64,000 nucleotides of DNA from Photorhabdus sp. CRCIA-P01 (GTDB lineage Bacteria; Pseudomonadota; Gammaproteobacteria; Enterobacterales; Enterobacteriaceae), in contig NZ_NMQR01000018.1 in assembly GCF_003545805.1 (NCBI RefSeq), positions 1-64,000 on the forward strand, read 5' to 3'. Position numbers and translations under genes: made by a program. Below are positions 4,946-53,075 of the stretch, one piece after another. Position 1 is the first letter of the stretch, and every line of letters starts with the position of its first letter. The notes beneath the pieces are model-generated. The model made no database searches and was not told where the DNA came from. It was given only the letters and a program-made list of their open reading frames with translations.

Positions 4946-7588
4946 ATGGCAATAAACATTTTATTTTCGTCTGCGCGGCCGGCGGGTAGCCAATGTGTGC
5001 CCGGTCAACCGGGCAGTTTCCGGCTCCGCCCTGTATATGTCTGTCTGCTATGTTCATTGATGGCGACAACCTTGTCCGCCTCTGCGCGGGAATACTTTAA
5101 TCCCGCTTTCCTAATGGGGGCGATGGGGGAGCAGGAGCATATCGATCTCTCGGCGTATGAGAACGCGGGGTATGTCGCACCGGGACGCTATCTGGTGGAT
5201 ATCTACATGAACCAGAATAAGGTAGACAACCGCGAAATTGAATTTAGGTTGATCAACGGCCATCTGCAACCGGTATTAACGGTTACACAGTTCGAAGAGT
5301 ATGGGGTTAATATTCGCGGATTACCGGCTTTTCAGGGAAAAGCGAGCGGCAGCCCCATCACGGATCTGACGAAACAGATCCCACACGCCCGCGCGATATT
5401 GGATTTCGCCCGTTTGCGTCTGGATTTGAGTGTCCCTCAGGCAGTCATGCAGCCTCACCATTCCGGGAGGGTCGATCCGTCACTGTGGGATAACGGTATT
5501 CCGGCCTTTTTGATGAATTACACCGTCAATGGTTCGGAAGGGCGTTATGATGGTCAGGAAACCGGCGGCGGATCACGCTCCCGTAATCTGTTTGCCTCTT
5601 TTCGTAATGGGTTGAATCTGGGGCCGTGGCGTCTGCGCAGTACGCAAACGTACAGTTACCATCGCCAGCGCAACGAAGGGCCTTCCGGTTTTTCCCCCTC
5701 TACGCAGACTCAATGGCAGGTGAGTAATACCTATCTGCAACGTAACGTTCAGTCACTGCGTGGTGAATTTACGGCCGGTGAAACCTATACCGGCGGGGAT
5801 ATTTTTGACAGTATCCCGTTGCGGGGCATGAAACTGGCTTCCGAGGAGGCTATGTTGCCTGACAGTCAGCGCGGTTTTGCCCCGGAGATAACTGGGGTGG
5901 CGAGCTCTAATGCGCAGGTGACCGTATCTCAGAATGGTTATACCGTGTATCAAACCACGGTAGCGCCGGGGCCGTTTCGTTTCACCGATTTGTACACCAT
6001 CGGGGACTCTGGCGACCTGACGGTCACGATCAAAGAGGCAGATGGCAGTACTCGTGTCTCTACTCTCTCCTCTTCGTCTGTCCCGATGATGCAGCGGCCC
6101 GGTGGCATTATATATGAGTTGACGGCTGGTCAATATCACGGCGGCAACCTCACCGACGGCAGCCGTTCCCCGGTATTTGCGCTGGGTACGTTGGTTTATG
6201 GTTTGCCACATAATATCACTCTGTACGGTGGGGGACTGATTGCAGGCAACTACCAGTCGGGTGTATTAGGTTCGGGCGTGTCACTGGGGGCATTTGGCGC
6301 ATTGTCTGCGGATGTGACGTTTGCACGGGCCCAGTTGCAAGGGGCTAAGGGGCAGGAAAATAACCGGCAACAGGGCCAAGCTTATCGGGTGAAATATGCC
6401 AAGAACCTGATCAGTACCGGCACCGGTATTGATCTGGCTGCCTATCGCTATTCCACTCCGCATTATTACAGTTTCAGTGATGTTAACAGCATGGGGTACA
6501 GCTTGAATGAATATCAGGTGCCGTGGGCGCTTGACCGACGTCAAAGCACCTGGCAGGTGAACCTGCACCAAACGCTAGGACGTTGGGGCAGTCTTTACGC
6601 CTCCGGGACGCGCAATGATTATTGGAATGGCCGTACCGACAACAATTTGAATTTGGGTTATAACGCGATGCTGATGGGGATCAGCTATAACCTGAGTTAT
6701 AACATTTATCGTATGGAAGGGGCAGGCCACTGGTCGGAGAATCGTCAGGTGTCATTCAATATGCAGGTCCCACTCAGTCTCTTTGGGTCATCGTCTGCGC
6801 TACGGGGTGCTTACACCCGCTATACGGTCTCGCGCGACTCGCAGGGTAACACCACGCAGCAGACCGGGATCAGTGGCATGTTATGGGATAACCGCCTGAA
6901 TTATAACCTCCAGCAAGGTTGGGGGAATAGCGGCCAGCAAAACAGCCGGGCTATGTCTCTGAGTTATCAAGGCAGTCAGGGGAACGTTAATCTGGGCTAC
7001 AACGACAGCGCTAATAGCCATCATTTCACCTACGGGGCTTCTGGTGCCCTCCTGATCCATCCTTACGGCATGACGCTATCACGTTCACTGGGTGATGAAG
7101 CGGTGTTGGTCCGTGCGCCCGGGGCGAAAGGGGTGACGGTCGGTGACGGCAATGTGCAGACCGACTGGCGTGGTTACGCCGTACTGCCGGGCGGATCGGT
7201 CTACCAAAAAAACACGATTAATCTGGATCCGTCCACCCTGCCGGAAGGTGTGGATATTGACCAGACCAGCAAGAACGTTTATCCGACCAGAGGAGCAGTG
7301 ACGCTGGCAAATTATCAGGTTCGCTCAGGCAGCCAGTTACTGTTGACGTTGACACATCATGGCAAACCGGTGCCCTTTGGCGCCACCGCGACGCTGGAAG
7401 AGAATGCCACTCAGGCCGGCGGTGGCATTGTGGGCGATAACGGCCGGGTTTATTTAAGCGGCATGCCCCCCGCTGGTCGCGTGAAAGTCAAATGGGGAAA
7501 CGGGGCAACGCAGCAATGTACCACCCGTTATCAGGTGCCGTCCGATACACCCGGGCAACTGGTGCAGGCAGATGCAGTGTGTCTGTAA
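4946..7588 (+). CDS. Outer-membrane fimbrial usher (PapC family)
   Basis: An 880-residue usher with a signal peptide ending near SASARE. The mature N-terminus reads YFNPAFL, the hallmark of the usher N-terminal chaperone-binding domain. The N-terminal domain is followed by a long beta-barrel region interrupted by a plug-like segment. The C-terminal domains contain a TRGAVTLANYQVRSG block and a Gly-rich stretch, and end with a cysteine pair (QCTTRY and DAVCL) seen in many ushers. It forms the translocation pore that receives chaperone-pilin complexes and secretes the growing fibre. It sits between three chaperones and the adhesin, completing an assembly-competent cluster. Length and domain order are normal; no frameshift was seen. 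Confidence 0.93.
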   Translation: MAINILFSSARPAGSQCVPGQPGSFRLRPVYVCLLCSLMATTLSASAREYFNPAFLMGAMGEQEHIDLSAYENAGYVAPGRYLVDIYMNQNKVDNREIEFRLINGHLQPVLTVTQFEEYGVNIRGLPAFQGKASGSPITDLTKQIPHARAILDFARLRLDLSVPQAVMQPHHSGRVDPSLWDNGIPAFLMNYTVNGSEGRYDGQETGGGSRSRNLFASFRNGLNLGPWRLRSTQTYSYHRQRNEGPSGFSPSTQTQWQVSNTYLQRNVQSLRGEFTAGETYTGGDIFDSIPLRGMKLASEEAMLPDSQRGFAPEITGVASSNAQVTVSQNGYTVYQTTVAPGPFRFTDLYTIGDSGDLTVTIKEADGSTRVSTLSSSSVPMMQRPGGIIYELTAGQYHGGNLTDGSRSPVFALGTLVYGLPHNITLYGGGLIAGNYQSGVLGSGVSLGAFGALSADVTFARAQLQGAKGQENNRQQGQAYRVKYAKNLISTGTGIDLAAYRYSTPHYYSFSDVNSMGYSLNEYQVPWALDRRQSTWQVNLHQTLGRWGSLYASGTRNDYWNGRTDNNLNLGYNAMLMGISYNLSYNIYRMEGAGHWSENRQVSFNMQVPLSLFGSSSALRGAYTRYTVSRDSQGNTTQQTGISGMLWDNRLNYNLQQGWGNSGQQNSRAMSLSYQGSQGNVNLGYNDSANSHHFTYGASGALLIHPYGMTLSRSLGDEAVLVRAPGAKGVTVGDGNVQTDWRGYAVLPGGSVYQKNTINLDPSTLPEGVDIDQTSKNVYPTRGAVTLANYQVRSGSQLLLTLTHHGKPVPFGATATLEENATQAGGGIVGDNGRVYLSGMPPAGRVKVKWGNGATQQCTTRYQVPSDTPGQLVQADAVCL

Positions 7589-7625
7589 GCGATTTGAACA
7601 GATGAGTAGTTTGGAGAGAAGAAGA

Positions 7626-8780
7626 ATGTTAAACACTGAACGTTTGTGGTGCGGTAATGTAGAAAACCCCGTTCCAACCCTCATGGGCCTGGGGGTATCA
7701 CTGCTTTTTTTATTGACCACTTTGCCACTCCAGGCGGCAGAGAGTTATCAGGACTGTGAGATTGAACTGGTGCAGAGGGCTCGCAACGTCACCGGTTATG
7801 CCATGGTGCCAAACAACAAAGATAAGCGTGATTACTCACGAGATAAGATAGTGGGTTATACCACCAGTGGCTCCCTTGACTGGTCGACAACCTGTCGCGT
7901 CCCCACCGGGACACAGTTTATGGCCTATACAGTGGGATCGGGAACGAGCCCATTGATCTCTTCGTCGTCACCGAGTAGCGTCCGGGTAGGAAGGGCCGGC
8001 GACTTTATGGTTGATATCGGGCAATCTTCACTCTCTTGCCAGACGCACGGTTCACCCAATACCTATCAATCAGCCAGTCTGACCAAGGGGAATGCCGGTG
8101 TTAGCATTCCCTGCGTTCCCGATGCCAACGGCTTGGTTGATGTCAGTGTCCGTACCGTGACAGGGGCGATTTACCCGGACAGTGACGGCAATTTTAATGC
8201 GAAGGTAGGAGGCAGCCCCCTGTCAGTGGGCGCGATCGGTTGGACTCCTGCGTCCATATCGGGTTCTAACGGCATGCTGAAACCCCTGTGGGCCACGGTT
8301 ATCCTTTCACCGGTCAAAAAGCCGTCCACCTGTGCGGTTGTCCTGACACCTTCATCGGTGGATTGGGGAACGGTGAAAAGAACGGGCAAACAGGCGGGAG
8401 ACCCACTGGCGTCGGCCAGACAGATCGGGATAAACAGCACCTGTTCCGGCGATGACGGGGTATTCCAAAATTCACGCCTGCTTTACCGGATCGATGGGCC
8501 ATTCGTGCCGGGCAAACTGAATGCATTGGCTTCGTCGATAGAGGAAGTCGCTTTCGCATTCTTCGATTCTGCCAATAAACCCTTATTACTCAGTACTGGG
8601 CACCGAGGTACAGGGGAGGACGCAAGATACGTTAAGTTCGGGGACGATAGTTATACCGCTTCAACGCAACTGTCTGTAGTGCCAATTCTGTTGAAGACTG
8701 ACGGTGCTGGCGGGCAAGCCAGGGCTGTTGCGGTGATTTCCGTGTGGTCGGATATTAACTTCGTCGAACCATCTGCTTAG
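7626..8780 (+). CDS. Fimbrial tip adhesin candidate
   Basis: The ATG at 7626 follows GAGAGAAGAAG and is the likely start; the open frame extends upstream into the usher gene without a ribosome binding site. The product is 384 residues with a signal peptide ending near LPLQAAES. Six or more cysteines are spread over the protein. A two-part layout is likely: an N-terminal receptor-binding half to about residue 215, then a pilin-like half starting around KPSTCAVVLTP. This is the size and position expected for a two-domain adhesin capping the fibre. The receptor is unknown. It is the last gene of the cluster and is followed by a hairpin. Confidence 0.7.
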   Translation: MLNTERLWCGNVENPVPTLMGLGVSLLFLLTTLPLQAAESYQDCEIELVQRARNVTGYAMVPNNKDKRDYSRDKIVGYTTSGSLDWSTTCRVPTGTQFMAYTVGSGTSPLISSSSPSSVRVGRAGDFMVDIGQSSLSCQTHGSPNTYQSASLTKGNAGVSIPCVPDANGLVDVSVRTVTGAIYPDSDGNFNAKVGGSPLSVGAIGWTPASISGSNGMLKPLWATVILSPVKKPSTCAVVLTPSSVDWGTVKRTGKQAGDPLASARQIGINSTCSGDDGVFQNSRLLYRIDGPFVPGKLNALASSIEEVAFAFFDSANKPLLLSTGHRGTGEDARYVKFGDDSYTASTQLSVVPILLKTDGAGGQARAVAVISVWSDINFVEPSA

Positions 8781-8829
8781 ATCGGGGAATTTGTCGAAAT
8801 GGTTTGGTGGCGATGTTGTTTTCTATTTC

Positions 8830-8864
8830 ACAGAAGCACCGATTTTAAGCTCAGGTGCTTCTGT
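8830..8864 (+). terminator. Terminator hairpin after the fimbrial operon
   Basis: An 11-bp perfect stem (8830-8840 with 8854-8864; arms ACAGAAGCACC and GGTGCTTCTGT) with a 13-base loop, followed by GTTTGTT. It lies about 50 bases after the adhesin stop codon. Confidence 0.7.
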
Positions 8865-8882
8865 GTTTGTTAGAATGCTTAA

Positions 8883-8913
8883 TTAGATACAGTATTCTTT
8901 ATACTGTATCTAA
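8883..8913. terminator. 13-bp inverted repeat between convergent operons
   Basis: Perfect arms of 13 bases (8883-8895 and 8901-8913, TTAGATACAGTAT and its complement) around a 5-base loop. The minus-strand Nudix stop codon lies inside the right arm. There is no clear U-tract on either side, so termination or RNA stabilisation for the minus-strand operon are both possible. Confidence 0.5.
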
Positions 8914-9338
8914 CCTCGCATTTCTGTTATTTCTATTTCTTTATCGAAGCGTAAATGCTCATCGGCCGCCATCGGGATCAACCAACGTAAATTATAGATC
9001 ACATTATCGGGTAATGAATTTGCTTCATAGATATTAACGATCTCTTTTTCAATAGAATCGACAGAATAGACACGATCATCATACATATAGAGAAAATTTA
9101 CCTGATAAACGTCAGGGCGGGTTAAAACAGTAAATAATCGCCACTCTTCGGGACGTGTTTCAATACCGGCTTCCTCAGCAAACTCCCTTGCCATTGCCTG
9201 TTGAGGGCTTTCACCAGCTTCTATTTTTCCACCAATCCCATTGAGCTTCCCTTTTTGCCAACTGGGTTGTAATTTTGAAATCAGGGAGACATGTTTTTTA
9301 TCTTTAGAAAACATAAACCCTGTTACATAATTAATCAT
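8910..9338 (-). CDS. Nudix hydrolase
   Basis: A 142-residue protein with a full Nudix box: GKIEAGES, seven residues, then REFAEEAGI, giving the metal-binding G-x5-E-x7-R-E-x2-E-E-x-G pattern. Nudix enzymes hydrolyse nucleoside diphosphates linked to another group. The start ATG has GGGGAGA a few bases upstream and lies 16 bases after the stop of the PurA-like gene, so the two are co-transcribed. As the last gene of a five-gene operon built of nucleotide-type enzymes, it may process a pyrophosphate-bearing intermediate or clean up a by-product. The substrate cannot be read from the sequence. Confidence 0.85.
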   Translation of the reverse strand: MINYVTGFMFSKDKKHVSLISKLQPSWQKGKLNGIGGKIEAGESPQQAMAREFAEEAGIETRPEEWRLFTVLTRPDVYQVNFLYMYDDRVYSVDSIEKEIVNIYEANSLPDNVIYNLRWLIPMAADEHLRFDKEIEITEMRG

Positions 9339-9354
9339 TATTTTCTCCCCGCTT

Positions 9355-10614
9355 TTATTTCATGACTAATGTTTGATTTCTGTCTGGCCCATAGGAAATA
9401 TATTTGATTGGGACTCCAGCATAGTCTTGAATAAAAGATAAGAAGTCAATCAGCTCAATAGGCAGTTCCGTTAAATGTGTATATGATGAGTTAAGTGCTC
9501 CCCAGGACTTAAATGTCTTATAGATAGGTTTAACTCTGTCGAACTGTAATAATGCGTCATTGCAACAGATGAGCTTGTCGTCCATTTCATAGGCAATAGC
9601 GACTTTTATTTCATGTAAATCAGCAAGAACATCAACATTCGTTATGGCGAGTTCTGTTACGCCATTGAGTTTCACTGCATGTTTAATCAGGGATAAATCC
9701 AACCAGCCACAACGCCTCGGCCTTTTTGAAACGGTGCCATACTCGTTCCCACGCTCCCGAATATAATCAGCCTGTTCTGTCGATAATTCGGTGGGGAATG
9801 GCCCATTACCGACACGGATCATATAGGATTTCATTACACCAACAATATGCATTTTCTGTGCCGGTATACCTATCATTGCAAAGCAGGTTTGCACTAATGT
9901 CTGATATGCCACGGTATAGGGATAAGTACCAAAACTATTATCTAAGAAAGTGGCTTGTGATGTCTCAAGTAAAACATCTTCTCCAGCATTAAGTAAATCA
10001 CCGATAACTTCATTAGTGAACGTGAAATAGGGTTCTATCCTCTTGCCATATTGATGCGTTGTTTCTAACATCTCTTCAAAATCTAATGTGGTTTGTGCAT
10101 TAAAAACATGGTTAATCTGCTTTTTTCTGATATTCCAAAGAAATTCTAATTTACTCCTTAATTTTTCTTTATCAAGGGTATCAATAAGCCGAATGCCATG
10201 ACGGTTGGCTTTGTCTTCAACACAGGCCCCCACGCCGACACCAACTGAACCTATCTTCTGTTTACCTTTATATTTTTCTGACGCTCTATTTAACTCAGAA
10301 TGTAATGGTAAGACGATATGGCATCGCGGATCGATAAATATATTAGAATCAATTTTTTCTTTTTGTATAAAATCGATCTCTTTAACCAGCACGGGAAGAC
10401 TGATTAAAGCACCTTGGCAGATATATAAATTCTTTTTGTTGAGTGACGCCGGTAATTGAGAAAATGAGCTTCTTAGATCACCATGTTGCACACAATGACC
10501 CGCATTAGCGCCGCCATTGAATCGAGCAATGTTATTAATGTTGCCAGATAAATAGTCAACAAATTTTCCTTTACCTTCATCTCCAAATTGGAGTCCAACT
10601 ACAGCAGTTAACAT
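9355..10614 (-). CDS. Divergent adenylosuccinate-synthetase-like ligase (PurA paralogue)
   Basis: A 419-residue protein with the PurA N-terminal signature VVGLQFGDEGKGKFVD (P-loop-like, with the catalytic Asp) and NGGANAGHCV (catalytic His), so GTP-dependent phosphoryl activation looks intact. Two substrate loops differ from housekeeping PurA. The IMP-binding stretch usually read as GTTGRGIGPAYEDK is GSVGVGVGACVEDK here. The aspartate-binding loop usually read as TTGR-x-RR-TGW is TVSKRPRRCGW. TNVDVL keeps the Asp of the guanine-recognition motif. PurA condenses IMP with aspartate; here a different acceptor, a different amino acid, or resistance to a PurA inhibitor is inferred. AAGGA precedes the ATG. 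It is fourth in the operon, after a 190-base gap. Confidence 0.85.
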   Translation of the reverse strand: MLTAVVGLQFGDEGKGKFVDYLSGNINNIARFNGGANAGHCVQHGDLRSSFSQLPASLNKKNLYICQGALISLPVLVKEIDFIQKEKIDSNIFIDPRCHIVLPLHSELNRASEKYKGKQKIGSVGVGVGACVEDKANRHGIRLIDTLDKEKLRSKLEFLWNIRKKQINHVFNAQTTLDFEEMLETTHQYGKRIEPYFTFTNEVIGDLLNAGEDVLLETSQATFLDNSFGTYPYTVAYQTLVQTCFAMIGIPAQKMHIVGVMKSYMIRVGNGPFPTELSTEQADYIRERGNEYGTVSKRPRRCGWLDLSLIKHAVKLNGVTELAITNVDVLADLHEIKVAIAYEMDDKLICCNDALLQFDRVKPIYKTFKSWGALNSSYTHLTELPIELIDFLSFIQDYAGVPIKYISYGPDRNQTLVMK

Positions 10615-10804
10615 AAATCTATTCCTTATTATTTATTGATTTAGTTTGAGTAGTAGTTAAGTCATTATCTTTGATAATTTTTTAAATGAATAATCTGTTT
10701 TTAAATACTAAGCTGTTCTTTTAAAACTAATGTGCTAAATATCTATTCGTACACCGTTATAAATTATCCTTTATCTTATCGGATTATATTGAACAGCCTC
10801 TTTA

Positions 10805-11467
10805 TTACTGTTGATGGACCAAAGAGTCCGCTATTAATAGAGCTTCTCTTAATGTATCAACAATGGGAACACCGGCAGTTTCAAGACTGACACGGCTGTG
10901 GGTTCCTCCGGTATAAAGAATGGCATGAGCTCCTGTTGCTAATGCGGCAATTGCGTCATCGGTAGCGTCTCCAATAACCACACTTTGCTCAGGAGCAACA
11001 TTGAGTTTTTTGAGATGGTTAGCTAACTGCTCTGATTTGCCGGTTATCAATAATGGCGTATTTCTACCATCTATTTGGGTAAAGAATTTACCAATACCAT
11101 GATTATCAAGCATAGGGACCAATTCATTATGCTCCATCAATGAACATAATGACTGAGTTGCCCCTGTTTCATAGCGGGAAGCGAGGAGTTGGCTCACACC
11201 TTCCGTTAAACTGGCTTTCTGAATACCTGGGCGATAGTGAAAATTAAACGTTTTTCCGATCACTGACCATTCAGAAGATGAAGGTTCACGGCCAATCACT
11301 TGTTTATAGAAAGTTTGTACTGGAACACAATAATATTCCCGATATTGTTCCAGCGTCAGCGGTTCAATACCAATTTCCGCCAATGCGAAATTGGTTGCAC
11401 TCAATGAAACATTGACATCATTAAGTAATGTACCATTCCAATCCCAAATAATATGTGCTGTTGTCAT
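10805..11467 (-). CDS. HAD-superfamily hydrolase (phosphatase-like)
   Basis: A 220-residue HAD protein. The first motif is WDWNGTLLND: the nucleophile Asp is present, and the second acidic residue of the usual DxD is Asn, a variation seen in one group of HAD enzymes. Motif II falls in the CSLMEHN region. Motif III/IV is the VVIGDATDDAIAALATGA block with paired aspartates, followed by the typical Gly-rich loop (ILYTGGTHSR). A helical cap insert lies at about residues 15-80. Most relatives are phosphatases of sugar phosphates or nucleotides. It lies 26 bases after the phosphoribosyltransferase gene, so dephosphorylation of a phosphoribosylated intermediate is a reasonable guess. Confidence 0.85.
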   Translation of the reverse strand: MTTAHIIWDWNGTLLNDVNVSLSATNFALAEIGIEPLTLEQYREYYCVPVQTFYKQVIGREPSSSEWSVIGKTFNFHYRPGIQKASLTEGVSQLLASRYETGATQSLCSLMEHNELVPMLDNHGIGKFFTQIDGRNTPLLITGKSEQLANHLKKLNVAPEQSVVIGDATDDAIAALATGAHAILYTGGTHSRVSLETAGVPIVDTLREALLIADSLVHQQ

Positions 11468-11493
11468 AATTAATTAACTCTCCCTTTTCCAAA

Positions 11494-12675
11494 CTAACTT
11501 TTGCGAACTGAACATTCAGGACATTGATATGCCAGGGCTTTAAATGCATCGATCGGTTGTTCATAATTCAGCGGTATTTGTGCTTTTAGATTTAATAAAA
11601 AGCGCAATAATTTGGCAGCCCATGTTGGGTCTGTCAGGGTGTCATGAAGGATAGACAATAAACTGTATGAATAGGCAACCCAATCCGCCGTGGTTGTGTG
11701 AGCATATTTATCATCCGCGAAAGGCTGATTAACTAAACGATCCAAAACCTGATGATGCCTGAAACACCAAGGCGTCAAGACATCCAAGGTTTCAGGGCTG
11801 AATACACGATCAGCATGCCCATAAACGCGGGTACGTAATAATTTTTCCCAATGCAGTTCGACGGCACGGGCCTTTGGACGTTGTCCGGTTTGGGCCATGA
11901 CCAGATCGATTGCCTGACGTAAGGTATCTCCTGTTCCGCAATTATCATCAATAATTGTCACGGTTCGCCCGGATGGAATATTGCGCCCCCAGAGATGATT
12001 GCTCTTGCAAGACGTATCATCGTAACGTGAAACTTTCACTAAATTGAGCTCACTATCCCATGCTGCGGCTGTGACTGCCGCTGCCGCTGATCCTCCCAAC
12101 ATGATGCCAACAACAGAGGAGTCGCGGCATATGTCAATTTGGGCAGCGGCCAAAGTTAACAGATGATTATCCCCTTCAATAAACGGTCTGGGCACTTTGT
12201 GTTCCGTGGATGAAGGCAATTTCAGGTCATGGATCGGAGAGGATGAAAAAGTAAATGGTGTGCCCATCAGTGTTGAGCTGACGACTTTTGCACACTCTTT
12301 TATCCCATCGATGAATGGCACAATATCTTCATTAACCGTCTGCGGAGAACTTAATAAGCTATCAACAATTCTGAGCAATTTTGCCAGGCTATGATCGGCC
12401 AATATATATTTTGATGGGGCAGAACACAGCTTGTCGGTACACTCAAGTTGAGAGAGGTATTCCGTGTAATATTTCGCCGCCATCAATAGTTCGTGACAAG
12501 GTTTTTGTTGGTAATAGGCCGCACCGCGAGAACCTACAAATGCTGGCTTCTCTGTGAGTAAACCTGGCAATGCCATGACTTTTTTAGTTAAATAGCGTGT
12601 TTCAGGTACGCTACGCAATTCGCCCAGTAAACCAATAGAGCGAAGATCCAAAGCAGGAGATAAAGATTCAGACAT
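11494..12675 (-). CDS. Phosphoribosyltransferase-fold protein with a long N-terminal extension
   Basis: A protein of about 393 residues. The PRPP-binding signature is VTIIDDNCGTGDTLRQA at about residues 240-256 (paired acids, then G-T-G-x-T). An upstream GIMLGGSAAAAVTAAAW block corresponds to the first loop of the type I PRTase fold, and an RYDD stretch lies between them. The N-terminal 170 residues are mostly helical and match nothing I recognise. A C-terminal PECSVRKS tail has a CxxC-like feel with an earlier cysteine. The ATG at 12675 is preferred; a TTG at 12681 overlaps the stop of the upstream isomerase gene, so translation is coupled. It probably joins ribose-5-phosphate to a small acceptor. 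The acceptor is unknown. Confidence 0.7.
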   Translation of the reverse strand: MSESLSPALDLRSIGLLGELRSVPETRYLTKKVMALPGLLTEKPAFVGSRGAAYYQQKPCHELLMAAKYYTEYLSQLECTDKLCSAPSKYILADHSLAKLLRIVDSLLSSPQTVNEDIVPFIDGIKECAKVVSSTLMGTPFTFSSSPIHDLKLPSSTEHKVPRPFIEGDNHLLTLAAAQIDICRDSSVVGIMLGGSAAAAVTAAAWDSELNLVKVSRYDDTSCKSNHLWGRNIPSGRTVTIIDDNCGTGDTLRQAIDLVMAQTGQRPKARAVELHWEKLLRTRVYGHADRVFSPETLDVLTPWCFRHHQVLDRLVNQPFADDKYAHTTTADWVAYSYSLLSILHDTLTDPTWAAKLLRFLLNLKAQIPLNYEQPIDAFKALAYQCPECSVRKS

Positions 12676-12677
12676 AT

Positions 12678-13454
12678 TCAACGTCTCGGTGATTGTGTTG
12701 CAGCAAGGGCATCTTCGAGAGGAACCTTACCAATATGTAGAGCTTGGCCAAGGATTGCCCCTTCGACACCGATAGTGGACATATCCGCTAAAGCGCGGAG
12801 ATCATCCAGGCTCGATACTCCGCCGCCGGCAATAACGGGTGATGACGTTTTCGCGCAGACTTCCTGTAATAGCGTGAAATTTGGCGAATTCATCATGCCC
12901 CCCCGCTCAATATCGGTTACGACGTAGCGTTGGCAACCCTGTTTGTCGAGGCGCTCAAGGACATCCCAGAGATTGCCTTTGCTGATATTCCATCCATGCG
13001 TTGCCAGTTGATAACCTTCTGATGTGCTTTTTACGTCCAGAGCAATGGCGATCTTATCGCCATATTCTGCAATGGCTCGGGCACACCAATCTGGATTTTC
13101 TAATGCCGCGGTCCCCAAATTAACTCGCTGGCATCCAGTTGCTAATACTTTGCACAAGATGGTTTCATCTCTGATTCCGCCACAGACCTGTACATTAATA
13201 TCGACCGCAGCCAGGACATCGGCAATAAGATGGCTGTTTGAGCCCCGTCCTGATGCAGCATCAAGATCAACAACATGGATCCATTTTGCTCCGGCATTTT
13301 GCCAGGCTAGTGCGACTTCCGCCGGGGTACCTAAAGGTCTCCGTAATGTTGAGCTTTCACCACGGGTTAATCGAATTGCGGAATTCGATGTCATTGCTAT
13401 TCCGTCAACAATATCCACGGAGGGAAATATCTCGAATGTTTTCTTACTTATCAT
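12678..13454 (-). CDS. HisA/PriA-type Amadori isomerase, actinobacterial flavour
   Basis: A 258-residue (beta/alpha)8 barrel protein. It keeps FPSVDIVDG (first catalytic Asp), RLTRGES, VCGGIRDE, the block RVNLGTAALENP, IALDVKS, YVVTDIE (second catalytic Asp) and the phosphate-binding GGGVSSLDDLRAL with VEGAILGQAL. Several of these stretches read more like the actinobacterial dual-function PriA than enterobacterial HisA. The first loop carries about five extra residues (IAMTSNSAIRL) and the usual DGT after the second Asp is GGM, so specificity is probably altered. The ATG at 13454 has AGGTG seven bases upstream; an in-frame GTG lies at 13463. It is the first gene of the five-gene operon. The reaction is likely an aminoaldose-to-aminoketose rearrangement of a phosphoribosyl intermediate. 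Confidence 0.82.
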   Translation of the reverse strand: MISKKTFEIFPSVDIVDGIAMTSNSAIRLTRGESSTLRRPLGTPAEVALAWQNAGAKWIHVVDLDAASGRGSNSHLIADVLAAVDINVQVCGGIRDETILCKVLATGCQRVNLGTAALENPDWCARAIAEYGDKIAIALDVKSTSEGYQLATHGWNISKGNLWDVLERLDKQGCQRYVVTDIERGGMMNSPNFTLLQEVCAKTSSPVIAGGGVSSLDDLRALADMSTIGVEGAILGQALHIGKVPLEDALAATQSPRR

Positions 13455-13486
13455 TGAATACACCTAAATGATCCCAATTTAATGGT

Positions 13487-13612
13487 TTATACCCTTCATC
13501 TTTCAAGCTGCTGCTTTGTTGGCTGCTTTCACTCACCCCAGTCACATCGTTATCTATGCTCCTGGGGATTCGTTCACTTGCCGCCGCGCTGCAACTCGAA
13601 ATCTATTAGGTT
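13487..13612 (-). repeat. ERIC element, copy 1
   Basis: About 126 bases from TATACCCTTCATC to CTATTAGGT, carrying the ERIC core (CCCAGTCAC with its complement-like CCTGGGGATTCG partner, and GGCTGCTTTC). Orientation is opposite to copies 2, 4 and 5. It lies directly upstream of the PriA-like operon, so it may sit between promoter and first gene or form the boundary of the transcript. Confidence 0.9.
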
Positions 13613-14337
13613 TAAAAATTAATAACGATTGTGATTAATAAAATTAAAACTTTTAACGCAATAAACAAATATGCTTAAAAATAAACGAATTAATTTAATG
13701 AACTTAATAACCGTTCATCGATTCATAATAGTGGAAAGAAAAAATTTCTCAACAGGGTTATTAGCTAAATATAACAATTTGGATAACTTTGTTAAGCCAG
13801 TTAATCTTATATTTACTTAAGAAGAGTTAATTTAGGGGGAGGTAAATAGAGATTCAGTTTAAATATATAGGAAATGAATTCTGCTAATGTTGATAGGGAA
13901 AATTTTGTGTTATTTATCTAATATTTTAATTACTTTAAATAATATAATTCTATTTTTTTAGGTAGTGACTTTAATATATTCTTGTTTATTTTAAATAAAC
14001 AATATTAATAATTTAATTTGTTAGGGTGGTTAATTTTAATTATAAGGGAAATATAATTACCGAGAATTTAAAATAGTAACGATGATGAATAAATAACTTT
14101 CCAAAATGGTGCTACACCTTATCTACCAACAACCCTATGTATAACAATGAGTTGAATAAAACCATGTGTAGCGGAATTATGAAACCTTATTTATACAATT
14201 ACATTCTATTCATCTGTGGAATTATTTGTTTATATTATATATAAACCTATTGCATAGGTGGTTTTTATAAAAATAGTTTGTTTTTATTATCGGCAACAAT
14301 AACTTATAATATAATTTCATTGGTTATTTTGTATGAA
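13613..14337. other. AT-rich gene-free stretch between two ERIC copies
   Basis: About 725 bases of very AT-rich DNA with no open frame worth calling on either strand. It probably holds the promoter of the minus-strand PriA-like operon. A small hairpin (ACCTAT, TGC, ATAGGT at 14245-14259) is followed by GGTTTTTA on the plus strand and could end a short plus-strand transcript. It is bounded by ERIC copies in opposite orientation. Confidence 0.5.
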
Positions 14338-17428: not shown

Positions 17429-17552
17429 TTGTTCTGGTTATATTTAAAATTAAATCTTGTAATCACTATATTTATTCTGGCGTATTTCTGGTTGTTTTTG
17501 GAAATTTGTCTGAATTATGCAGTATAGCCAACTATTGGATAAAAAAATATAT

Positions 17553-18953
17553 ATGAAACGTATTCCAGAACCTTTCCGTATTAAAATGGTAGAAAATATT
17601 CGTATGACTACCCGTGCCGAACGTGAAAAAGCATTAGCAGAAGCCGGATATAATCCATTCCTATTACCCAGTGACGCGGTTTATATTGATTTGCTGACAG
17701 ATTCTGGCACTGGAGCAATGAGTGATCGCCAGTGGGCGGGGATGATGATGGGGGATGAAGCTTATGCAGGTTCCCGTAACTATTATCATCTATGTGATAA
17801 AGTTAATGAATTAATTGGCTACCAATATACTATTCCGACCCATCAAGGGCGTGGAGCGGAGCAGATTTTATTTCCGACATTAATTGCTCGGAAAAAAGCA
17901 CAAGGTGGTGCAACGCATCCGGTGTTTATTTCTAATTTCCATTTTGATACGACAGCGGCTCATGTTGAATTAAATGGCGCGAAAGCGATTAATGTTGTTA
18001 CACCAAAAGCCTTTGATACCACCACCTATTATGAGTGGAAAGGCGATTTTGATATTGATGAATTGAAAAAAACGATAGCGGAACATGGCGCTGATAATAT
18101 TGTTGCGATTATTACAACCGTTACCTGTAACAGCTCCGGTGGTCAGCCTATCTCTATTGCTAATATGAGCGCTGTGTATGAAATAGCAAAGCAACATGAT
18201 ATTCCTGTGGTGATTGATTCAGCCCGTTTCTGTGAAAATGCTTGGTTTATTAAGCAAAGAGAAAAGGGCTATGAAAATAAATCTGTTAAGCAGATTGTCA
18301 AGGAGATGTATCAATATGGCGATATGTTAACAATGTCAGCTAAAAAAGACCCCTTGGTCAATATTGGTGGTCTTTGCTGTTTCCGTGATGATGAAGAGCT
18401 CTTTAATGAAGTGCGTACCCGCTGTGTGCCAATGGAAGGATTTGTGACTTATGGCGGTCTCGCCGGACGCGATATGGAGGCATTGGCAATTGGTCTTGAA
18501 GAGGGGATGAATGAGGATTATCTGGCATATCGTATTAATCAGGTGGCTTATTTAGGTAATAGATTAAGAGATGCAGGTATTCCCATTCAATATCCAACCG
18601 GTGGTCATGCTGTATTTGTTGATGCTAAATTATTATTACCGCATATTCCGGGGGAACAATTCCCTGCTCATGCATTGAATAATGAATTATATTTGGAGGC
18701 GGGAATAAGAAGTGTGGAAATTGGTTCTTTGTTATTAGGTCGTGATCCAAAAACGGGAAAACAGAAACCATCACCAATGGAACTTTTGCGATTAACTATT
18801 CCTCGACGCGTCTATACTAATGATCATATGGATTATGTTGTAGAAGCTTTTATTTCTTTAAAGGAGCGAATTCCTCAGATTAAAGGATTAATGTTTACTT
18901 ATGAGCCATCCGTATTACGACATTTTGTTGCAAGATTAAAACCAATTAAATAA
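17553..18953 (+). CDS. tnaA: Tryptophanase
   Basis: A PLP-dependent lyase that splits tryptophan into indole, pyruvate and ammonia in the cytoplasm. The [14 protein letters not shown] start at 17553 matches known TnaA; an in-frame ATG at 17517 lacks support. Length is 466 residues against about 471 in E. coli. THQGRGAEQ, the FHFDTT region and the [13 protein letters not shown] block (PLP-binding lysine region) are diagnostic, and the C-terminal RLTIPRRVY is conserved. It is controlled by the TnaC leader and the CRP site upstream, and is followed by an ERIC copy and the permease gene. Indole made here could serve as a signal in the insect or nematode host; that is inference. Confidence 0.97.
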
Positions 18954-19008
18954 TAATAATCGGGGTGCTCCTTATTTAAGAGCATCCCAAATTTTACTGC
19001 TTATCATA

Positions 19009-19135
19009 TATACCCTATGGATTTCAAGATGCATCGCGACGGCAAGGGAGTGAATTCCCGGGAGCATAGCTAACTATGTGACCGGGGTGAATGAGCGCAG
19101 CCAACAAAGAGGCAACTTGAAGGATAACGGGTATA
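19009..19135 (+). repeat. ERIC element, copy 4, between tnaA and tnaB
   Basis: About 127 bases from TATACCCTATGG to GGGTATA. This copy is more diverged than the other four (GATGCATCGCGACGG, ACCGGGGTGAATGAGCGCAGCC) and is closer to the general ERIC consensus. It ends 22 bases before the tnaB start codon, so it is transcribed inside the operon. Confidence 0.9.
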
Positions 19136-19157
19136 AAGCCACGCTAGGGTAACATAT

Positions 19158-20402
19158 ATGGCTACTTTGCCGATAAAAAAATCGTCTCCATCTTTATTTG
19201 GCGGCGCTATGATCATTGGTGGAACGATTATTGGTGCGGGCATGTTTTCCTTACCGGTTGTCATGTCAGGAGCATGGTTTTTCTGGTCAATTGCCACTTT
19301 GATTTTTACCTGGTTTTGCATGTTGCATTCAGGATTAATGATATTGGAAGCCAATCTTAATTATCGAATTGGTTCAAGTTTCAGTACCATCACAAAAGAT
19401 CTGTTGGGCAATGGCTGGAATATCATTAATGGTATTACCCTTGCTTTTGTTTTATATATACTGACTTACGCTTATATTTCCGCTAGTGGATCGATTATTC
19501 AACATGCTATGCGGGAGGTATCGATAGATTTTTCACCTGGGTTTGCTGGTTTTTTATTTGCTTTTGTTGTTGCATTTATTGTTTGGTTAAGTACGAAAAC
19601 TGTCAGCCGGATAACATCAATTATTCTTGGTGCTAAGGTATTAACTTTCTTTATGACGTTTGGTGGTTTGGTTTATAACGTTAAACCAACGGTATTGTTT
19701 AATACAATTGAAGTAAATCCGACTTACTGGCCTTATGTATTAATGACTTTACCTTTCTGCCTGGCCTCCTTTGGATATCATGGCAATGTTCCTAGCCTGA
19801 TGAAATATTATGGAAAAGAGCCAGAAAAAATAAAGAGATGCCTGTTTATTGGGACATCAATGGCCTTGGTGCTTTATTTGATTTGGTTGATTGGAACAAT
19901 GGGAAATATTTCCCGGCATGATTTTGTCGAAATCATAGCAAAAGGAGGCAATATTGATGTTTTGGTTCAATCATTAAGTGGAGGATTGAACAGTTCTGCT
20001 CTGGGCTTATTATTGACTCTTTTTTCTAACTTTGCGGTTGCCAGCTCATTCCTTGGTGTCACGCTTGGATTGTTCGATTACTTGGCTGATCTGCTTAAAT
20101 TTGATGATACCAAGCTAGGGCGCTTTAAAACGGCATTAGTGACATTTCTTCCGCCAATGGTTGGTGGAATGATTTATCCGAATGGTTTTATTCATGCGAT
20201 TGGTTTTGCTGGCCTTGCTGCAACAGTTTGGGCTGCTATCGTTCCCGTATTACTTGCCAGAGCATCCCGTAAACGATTTGGTAGCCCTATGTATCGAGTT
20301 TGGGGAGGTAATGTGATGCTCGGCTTGATTTTGCTATTTGGCGTACTCAATGCTGCTGCCCATATCTTATCAAGTTTTAACCTGCTGCCCGTTTATTCAT
20401 AA
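19158..20402 (+). CDS. tnaB: Low-affinity tryptophan permease
   Basis: A 414-residue inner-membrane carrier of the aromatic amino acid permease family (TnaB/Mtr/TyrP). The N-terminal [24 protein letters not shown] is the family signature, and about eleven hydrophobic segments follow. [15 protein letters not shown] is another conserved block. It imports tryptophan for TnaA. It lies about 200 bases after tnaA, with an ERIC copy in the gap. Position after tnaA supports TnaB rather than Mtr or TyrP. It is followed directly by a GC-rich hairpin. Confidence 0.92.
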
Positions 20403-22334: not shown

Positions 22335-22743
22335 ATGTAGTAGTCACGCAGAAAGGGCTATTGGTATTTGCAGAACTTATAATAGATGTTTTGCAGTGTA
22401 ATTATTGTTTTTCAGTTATTGATTTTTGTATTTAAATATTAACTGTGGGGCTAATATTATATATTATCCACTACATATTTTATGTTAATATTTAGCTATG
22501 TTATATTTCAATTAATATATGTTATGCTTATCATATCTATCCTAATTGATTGTTAATCCATCAGAATGGATTGTGTAATATATATTTTTTTCTGCATTTT
22601 ATCGCTAAGCTAGAAATATAGAGCATAAATATCTACTATTCTGATTATTACTTTCACGTTGAGGTAATATAATAGCAGTAGCTATTGTTTAAAATTTTTT
22701 CTCTAATAACATAACTTTTATGACGTCTAAAATAGGTAATTAT
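22335..22743. other. AT-rich region upstream of the toxin locus
   Basis: About 400 bases of AT-rich sequence with no supportable gene. It must contain the promoter of the P47-like gene; no specific operator was recognised. Confidence 0.45.
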
Positions 22744-25056
22744 ATGACCACAGAAAATAGCATTATTGATGATTTTGACGGTAAAACGAAGACTCTTGGA
22801 TGGGATATTATTGCTGCCTATGATAGAGATAAAATAAATATGCTGTTTGAACAGCAATATGTGCGAAAAGTGAGTGAAGGTACACATTTTTCGCCTATTT
22901 TCTGGGAAAATAAAAAGATAAAATTTGACAACTTGATATTAGGAGTGCCATTAATTTCCTTTGAAAATTCATCAATTGAAAGTTCTCAGGCAATGGTAAA
23001 ATTAAATTTTATTTCTGGCACGATAGTAGAGTTTTATGATGATGGTAGAGTAAAGAATTACCAAAGAATTACGCCGAATAATGATTACCATATAACCATA
23101 ACTGTTGACTTGATTGCGGCAACAGGATCTGTTGGTGATGATGGTAAAGTTGTCGTTGAGTTTAAAAAAGGGACTTTGGGGGAAGTTAATGTTATTGACA
23201 ATGCGCCAGCAGAAGTAAAAGAGTATTTCCGTAATTTGCTCAAGGATAGTAATGTCACTTATGAGTTAGGTATCTTGAAGTTGAATAATTCGGATGAGTT
23301 AGTGCCGAAAATGTTTAAAATCAGAACGCAACCTGCACCCGGTGCTAATTTATATGGTTCTGATAATTATGGTCATGGTGCGGTGTTGTTATTTATTGCA
23401 ACAAACTATAATCCTAATGGCGGAGCATTGCCAACTAACTCAAGTAATTTTCCTTATTTGATACCGGATAATCGTTCTGCGGTGTTAATTATCAGTAATA
23501 AGACACTTTTTGAGAATATCCTTAAGCCCCAATATGAATATTTATTACCTAGCCCAACGGGTGTAAATTTAGAATTGGTCAAGATTGATAGCCAGAAAGA
23601 TGACTCAGCTAGCTATTTGAATATAACAAGCGGGCATGCTGAGAGCAAGGAACCTGTAAAATATGAAGGAGGGGGGTATACAGTATGGACGGGATTGGTG
23701 AAATATCATGATAACAGTAATATGTGGTTAGAGAACGCCAAGATCCCCTATTCAGGAATGCATATTAAACCAAGCAAGGAAAAAATTGTCTTTGCTGGGG
23801 CGGATAATGATGGCCACTCTCATCATTTTACCCAACCAGTTGGTATTCTTTACAGTTCTCCAATAAGCGGTGGTTGGTACGAGTCTAAAATTAATTTTTA
23901 TATTGATGGCTCGATAGATATTACGCCTTATGTAAAATCTAATGATGAGATTGAATTAACGTTAAATAATAGAATGAGCGTCAGATATGACAAACAAGAT
24001 GAACCTGTTTGGACAATACACTTTTACCCTAAAGAAAAGTTTATTAATATAACAGCAGAAACTATTAAAGGTGTTGTTGAGGATAATTTATCCAATGTTG
24101 CAAAGATTAAATTAGACAGCATTAGTCTATTTGCAGTTAATCACCTTCTATTCCCTGAAAGCAATTATCTTGAGTTTGATAAAGTGTATGTGCCCGGAGA
24201 TATGGTGCTATTTGGTGATATTTCTCCAACATCAACCGCTTTTAAAATCAATGATCTTCAATTAACGATGTCAGTGAAGACTAAGCATAAATTTACAACC
24301 AATACCAATGCAACGGTAAATTGGTCTATTACTCCAGCGGAATTGGGGAGTATTGATGCGAATACGGGGGATTACACAGCACCGACTAAGATAAAAGGGA
24401 ATAGCCAAGTTGTGACAATTACTGCGACAGACGCTAAAACAAACGCTAAAGCTTCAGCGGTTGTAACTCTGTTGCCTTCCTCAGTATCGGTTAGCCCTTC
24501 TTTCGTTGTTATCAATGAAAATGATGTTAATAAGAATGTCAATTTTACTGTTTATGGTAATAAGAAAGTGAATTGGAGTGTGGAAACGGGTACTGTCTAT
24601 GGTGTTGTTGATGCGAATGGCAAATATACTCCTCCGGCTTCTTTTCCGGCCGGATATAATATGGTTACGGTGACGGCTGTTGCTGATAATGGCGATTTAG
24701 ATAAAGTGAATATTTTGCTTATCAGTAAAAACACGCAAGCTGAGTTCAGGATTGATCCTAGCTATAGCAGAGATTCATTAATACCAGATGGAAATATAGA
24801 TTTTTCTTCTACAGGTAACTCAGATTTTTCTCCAAGTGAATGGAGCCTTATGCCAGAAAGAGGAGATATTAAGGTAGGGAAACCCGAAATTGTAGGAAAA
24901 GATGAGTTTGATAATCCTATCGAAAAATATACTGCAACTTATACTGCGCCAAGTGATATTACGCGTTCAGAAATTGTTTTACTCAGAGTGACACATAAAA
25001 ATAAACCCAATCGTGCGGGATATGCTCTGATTACACTTGAGCCGAAAATCAGTTAA
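22744..25056 (+). CDS. P47/OrfX-like (TULIP-type) protein with C-terminal Ig-like repeats
   Basis: ATG 22744 is preferred over 22720 because AGGT lies about eight bases before it; the product is 770 residues. There is no signal peptide. The N-terminus contains LGWDIIAAYDRDKINMLFEQ, the opening expected of P47/OrfX proteins, whose TULIP fold binds lipids. That match is by eye and moderate. The last 260 residues look like three Ig-like (Big-type) modules, each with a WS-I/V or WSL strand followed by a TYTAP, DYTAP or KYTPP turn, such as VNWSITPAELGSIDANTG. The central part is beta-rich and unrecognised. It sits 260 bases before a Tc-type A subunit with an ERIC copy between. P47/OrfX genes accompany toxin genes elsewhere, so a role in toxin action or delivery is plausible. 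Confidence 0.55.
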   Translation: MTTENSIIDDFDGKTKTLGWDIIAAYDRDKINMLFEQQYVRKVSEGTHFSPIFWENKKIKFDNLILGVPLISFENSSIESSQAMVKLNFISGTIVEFYDDGRVKNYQRITPNNDYHITITVDLIAATGSVGDDGKVVVEFKKGTLGEVNVIDNAPAEVKEYFRNLLKDSNVTYELGILKLNNSDELVPKMFKIRTQPAPGANLYGSDNYGHGAVLLFIATNYNPNGGALPTNSSNFPYLIPDNRSAVLIISNKTLFENILKPQYEYLLPSPTGVNLELVKIDSQKDDSASYLNITSGHAESKEPVKYEGGGYTVWTGLVKYHDNSNMWLENAKIPYSGMHIKPSKEKIVFAGADNDGHSHHFTQPVGILYSSPISGGWYESKINFYIDGSIDITPYVKSNDEIELTLNNRMSVRYDKQDEPVWTIHFYPKEKFINITAETIKGVVEDNLSNVAKIKLDSISLFAVNHLLFPESNYLEFDKVYVPGDMVLFGDISPTSTAFKINDLQLTMSVKTKHKFTTNTNATVNWSITPAELGSIDANTGDYTAPTKIKGNSQVVTITATDAKTNAKASAVVTLLPSSVSVSPSFVVINENDVNKNVNFTVYGNKKVNWSVETGTVYGVVDANGKYTPPASFPAGYNMVTVTAVADNGDLDKVNILLISKNTQAEFRIDPSYSRDSLIPDGNIDFSSTGNSDFSPSEWSLMPERGDIKVGKPEIVGKDEFDNPIEKYTATYTAPSDITRSEIVLLRVTHKNKPNRAGYALITLEPKIS

Positions 25057-43335: not shown

Positions 43336-44634
43336 ATGTCTATTCAAGGTATTGGGCATACTCCCAGCGCCACGGCATTGGCGCCCCTTTCGAACGGAGA
43401 AGTACAGACACCGTCTCGCAATAACAATGTTCATCATCAGCTTGCCTCCCATTACACCAGTACTGGTCTTGGTACTCAGGTGTCTCCGGGTAAGGTGCTG
43501 ACTACCACACTGAAATACCTGACCCTGAGTGCTCCCGCTCGCAAGATTGGCACTGCCATACAGGGAGGACATGACTCCCATGCACAGAGTGCCAAAGGTA
43601 AGGCGCGTTACTGGACCGGGGCCATTGTCAAGGGTTTGGCTAATATCACTGGCGGTGCCAGTAGCGTAACGAGTGGTGCGATTACGGTCGGTGTTGCAGG
43701 CGTTAAAAACCTGGCGGAATCCACAGGGCGTTTGCTGGCATCCTCTACCTTGGGGCTGGCTGGCGCGGGCATGAAAGGAGTCTCACATCTACCGCTTGGT
43801 GCGTCCGATCGTTTGCAGGCTGGAACCCGTGCCGAGCAATTGCTGAATTCCGCCAAGGTGATCGCCAAACCAGCCTTTGTGGCTAAAGCGGAACAAGAGC
43901 CGTTGAATGCTGTCGGAGCCAAAGCAGTGATGGATGAGGCTCAATTGGCGAGAGTCAGTTGCTCCAGTAGTTATCGGGATATGCCGGCAGGTTACAGTCA
44001 TGCCACTTTGGCCGATATCCCGTCCTCGATACTGGCTCGCCGGGAGGATGGCAGTGGCGGTACCGGCAGTGAGTTAACCCTGCATGTTCGCCCCGGCAAG
44101 GGGGAGAATGATCCTTTGATCCTTGAGGGGGATCGCTGGTCTGCGCTCAAGGTTGCTGTCTACAAGCGTGACGATACGATGGTGCTTTCTTTCGTGGGTA
44201 CCCAGCCAACCAAGCGTCCTGGTACGGTGAAGAGTGATGTCGGCGCTGCTTTAGGGATCAAGGACAGTGCGTTTCAGGATGCTGATCGCTTGGTCAAGGC
44301 TTTTACCAAACAATATGGCGGCAAAGTTGAGGTTCTGGGCCACTCTTTAGGCGGTGGGTTGGCGCAATATGCGGGCATCAAACATGGGATCAAGGTCACC
44401 GCATTCAATAGCATGGGGTTGCATGTAGGATTGCGGGATCGGCTGGCTGACAAGTTGGATAGTGCCAATGTCACCCACATCAACACCAGTAGCGATCCGC
44501 TGAGTCAGAAGGCCGAACATGGTATTTTTGGCCTGGATGCCTCTTCTCAGGTAGGCAAGCGTTATGTGATTGAGCACTCAGGTGGTCACCGCATGGAGGC
44601 GGTGACCGCGGGTCTGGAAGCTTTACTTGCTTAA
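43336..44634 (+). CDS. Lipase-fold protein, candidate type III secreted effector
   Basis: A 432-residue protein with AAGGAG before the ATG. The first 60 residues are rich in Ser/Thr/Asn/Gln/Pro without a Sec signal, as in type III effectors. Residues 95-150 are Gly/Ala/Ser-rich and amphipathic (VKGLANITGGASSVTSG), perhaps chaperone- or membrane-binding. The C-terminal half is a class 3 lipase-like alpha/beta hydrolase: a strand MVLSFVGTQP, the nucleophile elbow EVLGHSLGGGLAQY (GxSxG), a likely acid in NTSSDPLS and a likely His in HSGGHRME. Intact triad candidates suggest phospholipase or lipase activity inside host cells. The chaperone gene directly upstream is the main evidence for type III export. 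Confidence 0.7.
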   Translation: MSIQGIGHTPSATALAPLSNGEVQTPSRNNNVHHQLASHYTSTGLGTQVSPGKVLTTTLKYLTLSAPARKIGTAIQGGHDSHAQSAKGKARYWTGAIVKGLANITGGASSVTSGAITVGVAGVKNLAESTGRLLASSTLGLAGAGMKGVSHLPLGASDRLQAGTRAEQLLNSAKVIAKPAFVAKAEQEPLNAVGAKAVMDEAQLARVSCSSSYRDMPAGYSHATLADIPSSILARREDGSGGTGSELTLHVRPGKGENDPLILEGDRWSALKVAVYKRDDTMVLSFVGTQPTKRPGTVKSDVGAALGIKDSAFQDADRLVKAFTKQYGGKVEVLGHSLGGGLAQYAGIKHGIKVTAFNSMGLHVGLRDRLADKLDSANVTHINTSSDPLSQKAEHGIFGLDASSQVGKRYVIEHSGGHRMEAVTAGLEALLA

Positions 44635-52167: not shown

Positions 52168-53037
<870 letters not shown>

Positions 53038-53075
53038 AGATTCTGTTTTTTCATTCTGACTATAAGGAAACTGCT

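Follow-up and report, generated by a model that had tools for sequence, protein, structure and literature searches.

Five neighbouring genes on the minus strand of a Photorhabdus contig form a real and conserved unit. Probably it is a self-contained operon that makes a specialised metabolite from PRPP, its enzymes being paralogues of histidine- and purine-pathway enzymes that have taken on new substrates. The genes lie within a stretch of 64,000 nucleotides that was analysed as a whole (the window). An operon of five genes had been proposed at this place in a sequence-only reading; the five ORFs were found there, the source of the DNA is Photorhabdus, and the five family assignments were upheld by matches to Pfam and curated models. 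The features are:

12678..13454, minus strand: first gene, for a HisA-family phosphoribosyl isomerase of the PriA/AdeK type; Pfam His_biosynth, 1.6e-59
11494..12681, minus strand: PRTase-fold protein; Pfam Pribosyltran, 9.9e-7; type I PRTase core at about 190-295
10805..11467, minus strand: HAD-family phosphatase; Pfam HAD_2, 2.3e-16
9355..10614, minus strand: PurA-like ligase; Pfam Adenylsucc_synt, 9.3e-131
8910..9338, minus strand: Nudix hydrolase with canonical Nudix-box residues; Pfam NUDIX, 4.9e-11
13725..13752, minus strand: candidate promoter TTGAGA-16-TATTAT; similar motif upstream in 11 of 18 sequences checked
10615..10804: intergenic gap of 190 nt between the HAD and purA-like genes; sequence mostly unconserved among relatives

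The priA-like and PRTase genes overlap by 4 nt, and the following junctions are gaps of 26 nt (PRTase to HAD), 190 nt (HAD to purA-like) and 16 nt (purA-like to Nudix). Some gap between the HAD and purA-like genes is retained in relatives, at about 137-326 nt. For the priA-like gene the ATG at 13454 was preferred over the GTG that the ORF list gives at 13463, and it is the likeliest start because it is kept in most aligned relatives; the PRTase gene starts with TTG, with an alternative ATG at 12675. Promoter-like sites in the operon region are no more frequent than expected by chance. The GC content declines from 0.49 in the priA-like gene, the first of the operon, to 0.38 in the purA-like and Nudix genes (window 0.43), as if the genes at 12678-13454 and at 8910-10614 came from different sources. 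At 8886-8912 a perfect-looking inverted repeat overlaps the stop codon of the Nudix gene and is possibly a terminator common to this gene and the convergent fimbrial gene. In the operon leader, a repeat-like stretch (13486-13600) has scattered matches in 292 records of a plasmid collection, enterobacterial and others, with identities of about 74-84% among the matches listed; it resembles an ERIC element and is absent at the same place in aligned Photorhabdus relatives. An RNA element was considered and rejected, with no Rfam match within the 64-kb window. Elsewhere in the window, three long ORFs (22720-25056, 43336-44634 and 53007-54980; 778, 432 and 657 aa) had no Pfam match at 1e-5, and a tryptophanase gene adjoins one for an Mtr-type tryptophan permease at 17517-20402.

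The order priA/hisA-like, PRTase, HAD, purA-like and Nudix was identical in all 16 loci fetched from relatives (11 Photorhabdus, four Xenorhabdus and one MAG) and was found again in L088, a further Xenorhabdus-genus genome. Flanking genes vary between groups of loci: as read from N-termini, Photorhabdus has fimbrial, formate-dehydrogenase-like or permease genes there, and three Xenorhabdus-genus loci have formaldehyde-detoxification-like ones. Co-occurrence of the five genes in other genomes, which the sequence-only reading had asked to be checked, thus holds for one unit with differing neighbours. Only the fimbrial usher and a MATE gene were traced from the window, the flanks otherwise being compared among themselves. 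No lyase, exporter or regulator gene accompanies the unit across all loci in this comparison of flanks, which counts against the pathway reading; a MATE gene lay within the three nearest upstream ORFs in 4/16 loci, two loci having no upstream ORF in the fetched stretch. A fimbrial-usher-like gene and the one next to it (4946-8780) converge on the operon and adjoin it in only some Photorhabdus loci.

The genes are under purifying selection and are conserved beyond chance, with dN/dS values of 0.010-0.173 in all 25 gene-by-locus comparisons (five Photorhabdus loci). Among the 16 relatives, 76 of 80 gene copies are intact. The purA-like gene is split over two frames in L020 (10061-11316), the had gene carries a stop in L023 (9212-9871), and L028 from X. 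budapestensis (7363-9170) has both a stop in prt and a 45-residue gap in the priA-like gene, which removes a catalytic Asp. Since four copies are damaged, two of them in X. budapestensis, the function of the operon is not needed everywhere.

A search of genome contigs with one PRTase sequence as the query, which picks up close relatives only, found the closest relatives of the operon in Photorhabdus. Among 58 genomes searched, the PRTase was present in 12/12 Photorhabdus (the genome under study and 11 others) and in 0/46 others. It also occurred in six of 30 genomes of the Xenorhabdus genus, to which L029 (X. stockiae) belongs; one of these six carriers has an in-frame TAG in the gene, and the MAG behind L032 appears within this list of genomes. 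In samples drawn from the order (394) and the phylum (398), which overlap and evidently hold no other carrier, only the query genome was recovered. The PRTase matched no plasmid record at E 0.01, no relatives of it were found in viral contigs, and as DNA it had no match in E. coli genomes. Outside Photorhabdus the operon is therefore patchy, with one other genus among the genomes sampled.

This distribution bears on a different use of the five enzymes, namely that they dispose of damaged nucleotides and sugar phosphates, ribosylated or glycated, or return them to use, with nothing being secreted. HAD and Nudix proteins are typical house-cleaners, the unit retains no exporter and it occurs in all 12 Photorhabdus genomes, as such a salvage, repair or detoxification route would have it. 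We nevertheless regard this as unlikely, as a PRTase and a PurA-type ligase build molecules at an energy cost and as the unit is patchy beyond Photorhabdus, in one other genus of the genomes sampled. A defence system was rejected, PADLOC having given only a Nudix match (2.2e-8) and weak PRTase matches (0.01 and 0.068). A phage origin was likewise rejected; the PHROGs matches were to a PurA family (7.1e-99), to Nudix families and, more weakly, to others, with none for the PRTase.

To the sequence-only reading none of the genes looked like the housekeeping copy for histidine or purine synthesis, and this was upheld by an ordinary purA on contig C110 (32% identity to the PurA-like protein) and hisA-family genes on contig C165 (33% and 25% identity to the isomerase). 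Of the two outcomes that it had named as fatal to a pathway, namely that the purA- and hisA-like genes are the sole copies or that the neighbours never co-occur, neither was found.

The isomerase scored 295.6 bits on the PriA model TIGR01919, below the cut-off of 306.45, and 185.8 bits on the HisA model TIGR00007. In a tree that carries a long-branch warning it groups with three PriA proteins (support 100/98), apart from 14 HisA; for two of these PriA the records lack annotation, and the name PriA was given by us. A profile of the isomerase reached 562.5 bits in its own genome and 142 bits at best elsewhere among 299 Pseudomonadota genomes. Ser81 and Arg143 of PriA are both replaced in the isomerase. 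The first is Cys in 17/17 loci, the comparison proteins having Ser (PriA, 3/3) or Gly (HisA, 14/14) at this position, and the second is His in 16/17, the exception being a gap in L028. The arginine position was placed by PDB 2x30, which itself differs there and which we take to be a designed mutant. Compared with these PriA and HisA proteins, the isomerase carries an insertion of six residues near loop 1, and three positions that are the same in 17/17 PriA/HisA are changed in the family (Asp to Gly, Gly to Ser and Ser to Gly); the two catalytic Asp are retained in 17/17 and 16/17 loci. The insertion and the three changed positions suggest a substrate other than ProFAR.

According to the available part of a 2026 paper, Ser81 and Arg143 are required for the TrpF-type activity of PriA, and the PriA paralogue AdeK from the adechlorin cluster carries Ser81 to Cys and Arg143 to His (PMC13055916). 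As 4/14 ordinary HisA also have His at the arginine position, the change there is a weaker sign of likeness to AdeK than that of Ser81. In the same part of the paper AdeK complements hisA and not trpF (PMC13055916). With the same two reported changes in both enzymes, this would favour a second histidine- or purine-type route, whose product would be a primary metabolite (for example AICAR or an imidazole compound) that serves insect or nematode growth. Such a route is nonetheless improbable, given that the five genes include no hisI, hisH, hisF or purB-type gene by Pfam and that the three otherwise constant PriA/HisA positions are altered.

In the PurA-like ligase, Asp13, Lys16, Asn38, His41, Arg143, Gln224, Arg303, Arg305 and Asp333 are retained in all eight family members compared, and the catalytic Asp13, Lys16, His41, Gln224, Arg303 and Arg305 in 17/17 loci. 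Thr129 and Thr239, which we take to be the IMP 5'-phosphate site of PurA, are both Val in 17/17 loci and Thr in all 30 ordinary PurA used as controls (the 29 best-scoring matches to the PurA-like family and the genome's own PurA). Asp231, Ser240, Ser241, Thr301, Gly302 and Lys331 of ordinary PurA are also changed in the family, and at 53 positions where 29 or all 30 of the controls agree, all eight PurA-like proteins differ, one position being a gap. In a tree built without phage proteins, a very long branch separates the family from 31 ordinary PurA. The protein scored 379.8 on TIGR00184, below the cut-off of 395.55, and 411.9 on NF002223, above the cut-off of 402; the latter counts against a pathway with new substrates. 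The simplest reading of these residues is that catalysis is kept and the substrate is different, perhaps one that lacks a phosphate at the usual position; alternatively, Asn38 and Arg143 may hold a phosphate in the pocket. Phage PurZ-type synthetases are PurA paralogues too; in the three compared, T300 and K331 are altered as well, but T239 (3/3) and T129 (2/3) are kept, where the PurA-like family has Val at both. For the isomerase and the PurA-like ligase alike, new specificity thus appears well supported at the level of sequence.

Self-resistance by a hydantocidin-like logic, with the PurA-like protein as an adenylosuccinate synthetase insensitive to an inhibitor made by the other four genes, would fit the kept catalytic residues and the one curated cut-off that is passed, but it is the least probable of these alternatives and was rejected, since an enzyme that works as a backup should have retained good IMP binding and the altered pocket, with 53 constant PurA positions changed including both phosphate-binding threonines, argues against a working second AdSS. 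No hydantocidin cluster appeared in the titles or abstract openings of the open-licence PMC papers listed for this compound. The gene plu4577 is taken here as the housekeeping purA. Expression of purA in Xenorhabdus koppenhoeferi concerns, in the available part of the report, a relative of plu4577 and was set aside (PMC4706420).

In the PRTase-fold protein only the core (about 190-295) is recognisable, with unmatched flanks and a Pribosyltran score of 28.6 bits against the Pfam cut-off of 26.3. Its PRPP-binding loop reads DDNCGTGDTL. Seven cysteines are invariant in 17/17 loci, including a C-terminal CPxC pair that might bind a metal. AlphaFold models were poor (pLDDT 58.9, and 48.7 for a second with 15 rows); with the first model, Foldseek matched chains of the UPRT, APRT, OPRT and HGPRT types, all of them above E 0.001, and a profile of the protein had no match among PDB sequences up to E 5. 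As the core is weakly matched and the models are poor, PRTase activity is a guess.

For the dedicated pathway, the following chemistry can be drawn up, with less confidence than is given to the pathway as such. PRTases couple PRPP with a base or amine, and the one encoded here would place ribose-5-phosphate onto an amine or base. HisA and PriA make aminoketoses from N-ribosyl adducts; the PriA/AdeK-type isomerase would convert the N-ribosyl adduct by an Amadori rearrangement to a 1-amino-1-deoxyribulose-5-phosphate adduct. PurA uses GTP to phosphorylate an oxo group and then adds aspartate, and in its PurA-like relative a nucleotide (GTP by family) could phosphorylate an oxo or amide group, at which aspartate or another amine would be joined. 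HAD and Nudix enzymes remove phosphate and would here take phosphates off the intermediate or product. Since the operon has no lyase, either a host lyase would complete the PurA-like step or the adduct would stay; the genome has four Lyase_1 genes, none inside the operon. The proposal of a dedicated pathway in the sequence-only reading is strengthened by the co-occurrence as a unit, the separate purA and hisA genes and the two changed pockets, while its antibiotic or signal stays conjectural. Genes, motifs, unit conservation and altered pockets can be read from the sequences themselves, and from these we infer the step order, the acceptor, the product and its role. Somewhat more tentatively, the operon could stand for a biosynthetic class of its own. 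A PRPP-derived aminoketose would then be activated and coupled with an amine by a PurA-fold ligase acting on a substrate that has no IMP-like 5'-phosphate at the customary position, and the product would be a compound of a new type. This class would be fixed in Photorhabdus, and some Xenorhabdus would have it too.

Three known systems resemble the operon in part, each described here from the available part of its source; the recruited priA of the first and the pairing of a PRTase with a dephosphorylating Nudix enzyme in the second are precedents for the proposed pathway. The ade cluster of Nonomuraea, Microbispora and Streptosporangium, for adechlorin and 2'-amino-2'-deoxyadenosine (PMC13055916), likewise has a PriA paralogue recruited beside nucleoside-type enzymes, and its AdeK has the two replacements of the Photorhabdus isomerase, a comparison made by reported residues only; the six-residue insertion and the further motif changes are relative to the PriA and HisA proteins and not to AdeK itself. 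It also has a hisG homologue (adeC) and a SAICAR synthetase (adeA), whereas the five genes here match no HisG, SAICAR-synthetase or halogenase family in Pfam. The tubercidin cluster has the PRTase TubE and a dephosphorylating Nudix enzyme, TubG, and PurA and PurB were proposed to be borrowed from primary metabolism (PMC6112128). It thus shares PRTase, Nudix and PurA chemistry with the operon but has deazapurine-forming genes, of which the five include none, and only here does the PurA-like gene lie inside the operon. The operon for 3'-amino-3'-deoxyguanosine (ADG) in Photorhabdus luminescens came to light by its homology to the puromycin cluster; adgB-E are described as homologues of pur10, pur4, pur7 and pur3, and their steps include an oxidation and an amination (PMC9239236). 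It is a small nucleoside operon of the same genus with phosphate-removing enzymes; identity with it was rejected, the five genes matching no pur10/pur4-type families when Pfam results were set against the published gene description. In the open-licence PMC literature, mostly at the level of titles and hence as a weak negative, no paper was recognisable as describing this operon.

The operon joins PriA- and PurA-type enzymes in one unit. PriA is described as exclusive to Actinomycetota in the available part of the 2026 paper (PMC13055916), and the PriA-type enzyme found here lies outside this phylum. Small nucleoside operons are easily overlooked in Photorhabdus, even though this antibiotic producer has been screened intensively. 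The presence of the operon in 12/12 Photorhabdus genomes, together with the purifying selection on its genes, points to a function that is important in insect or nematode life.
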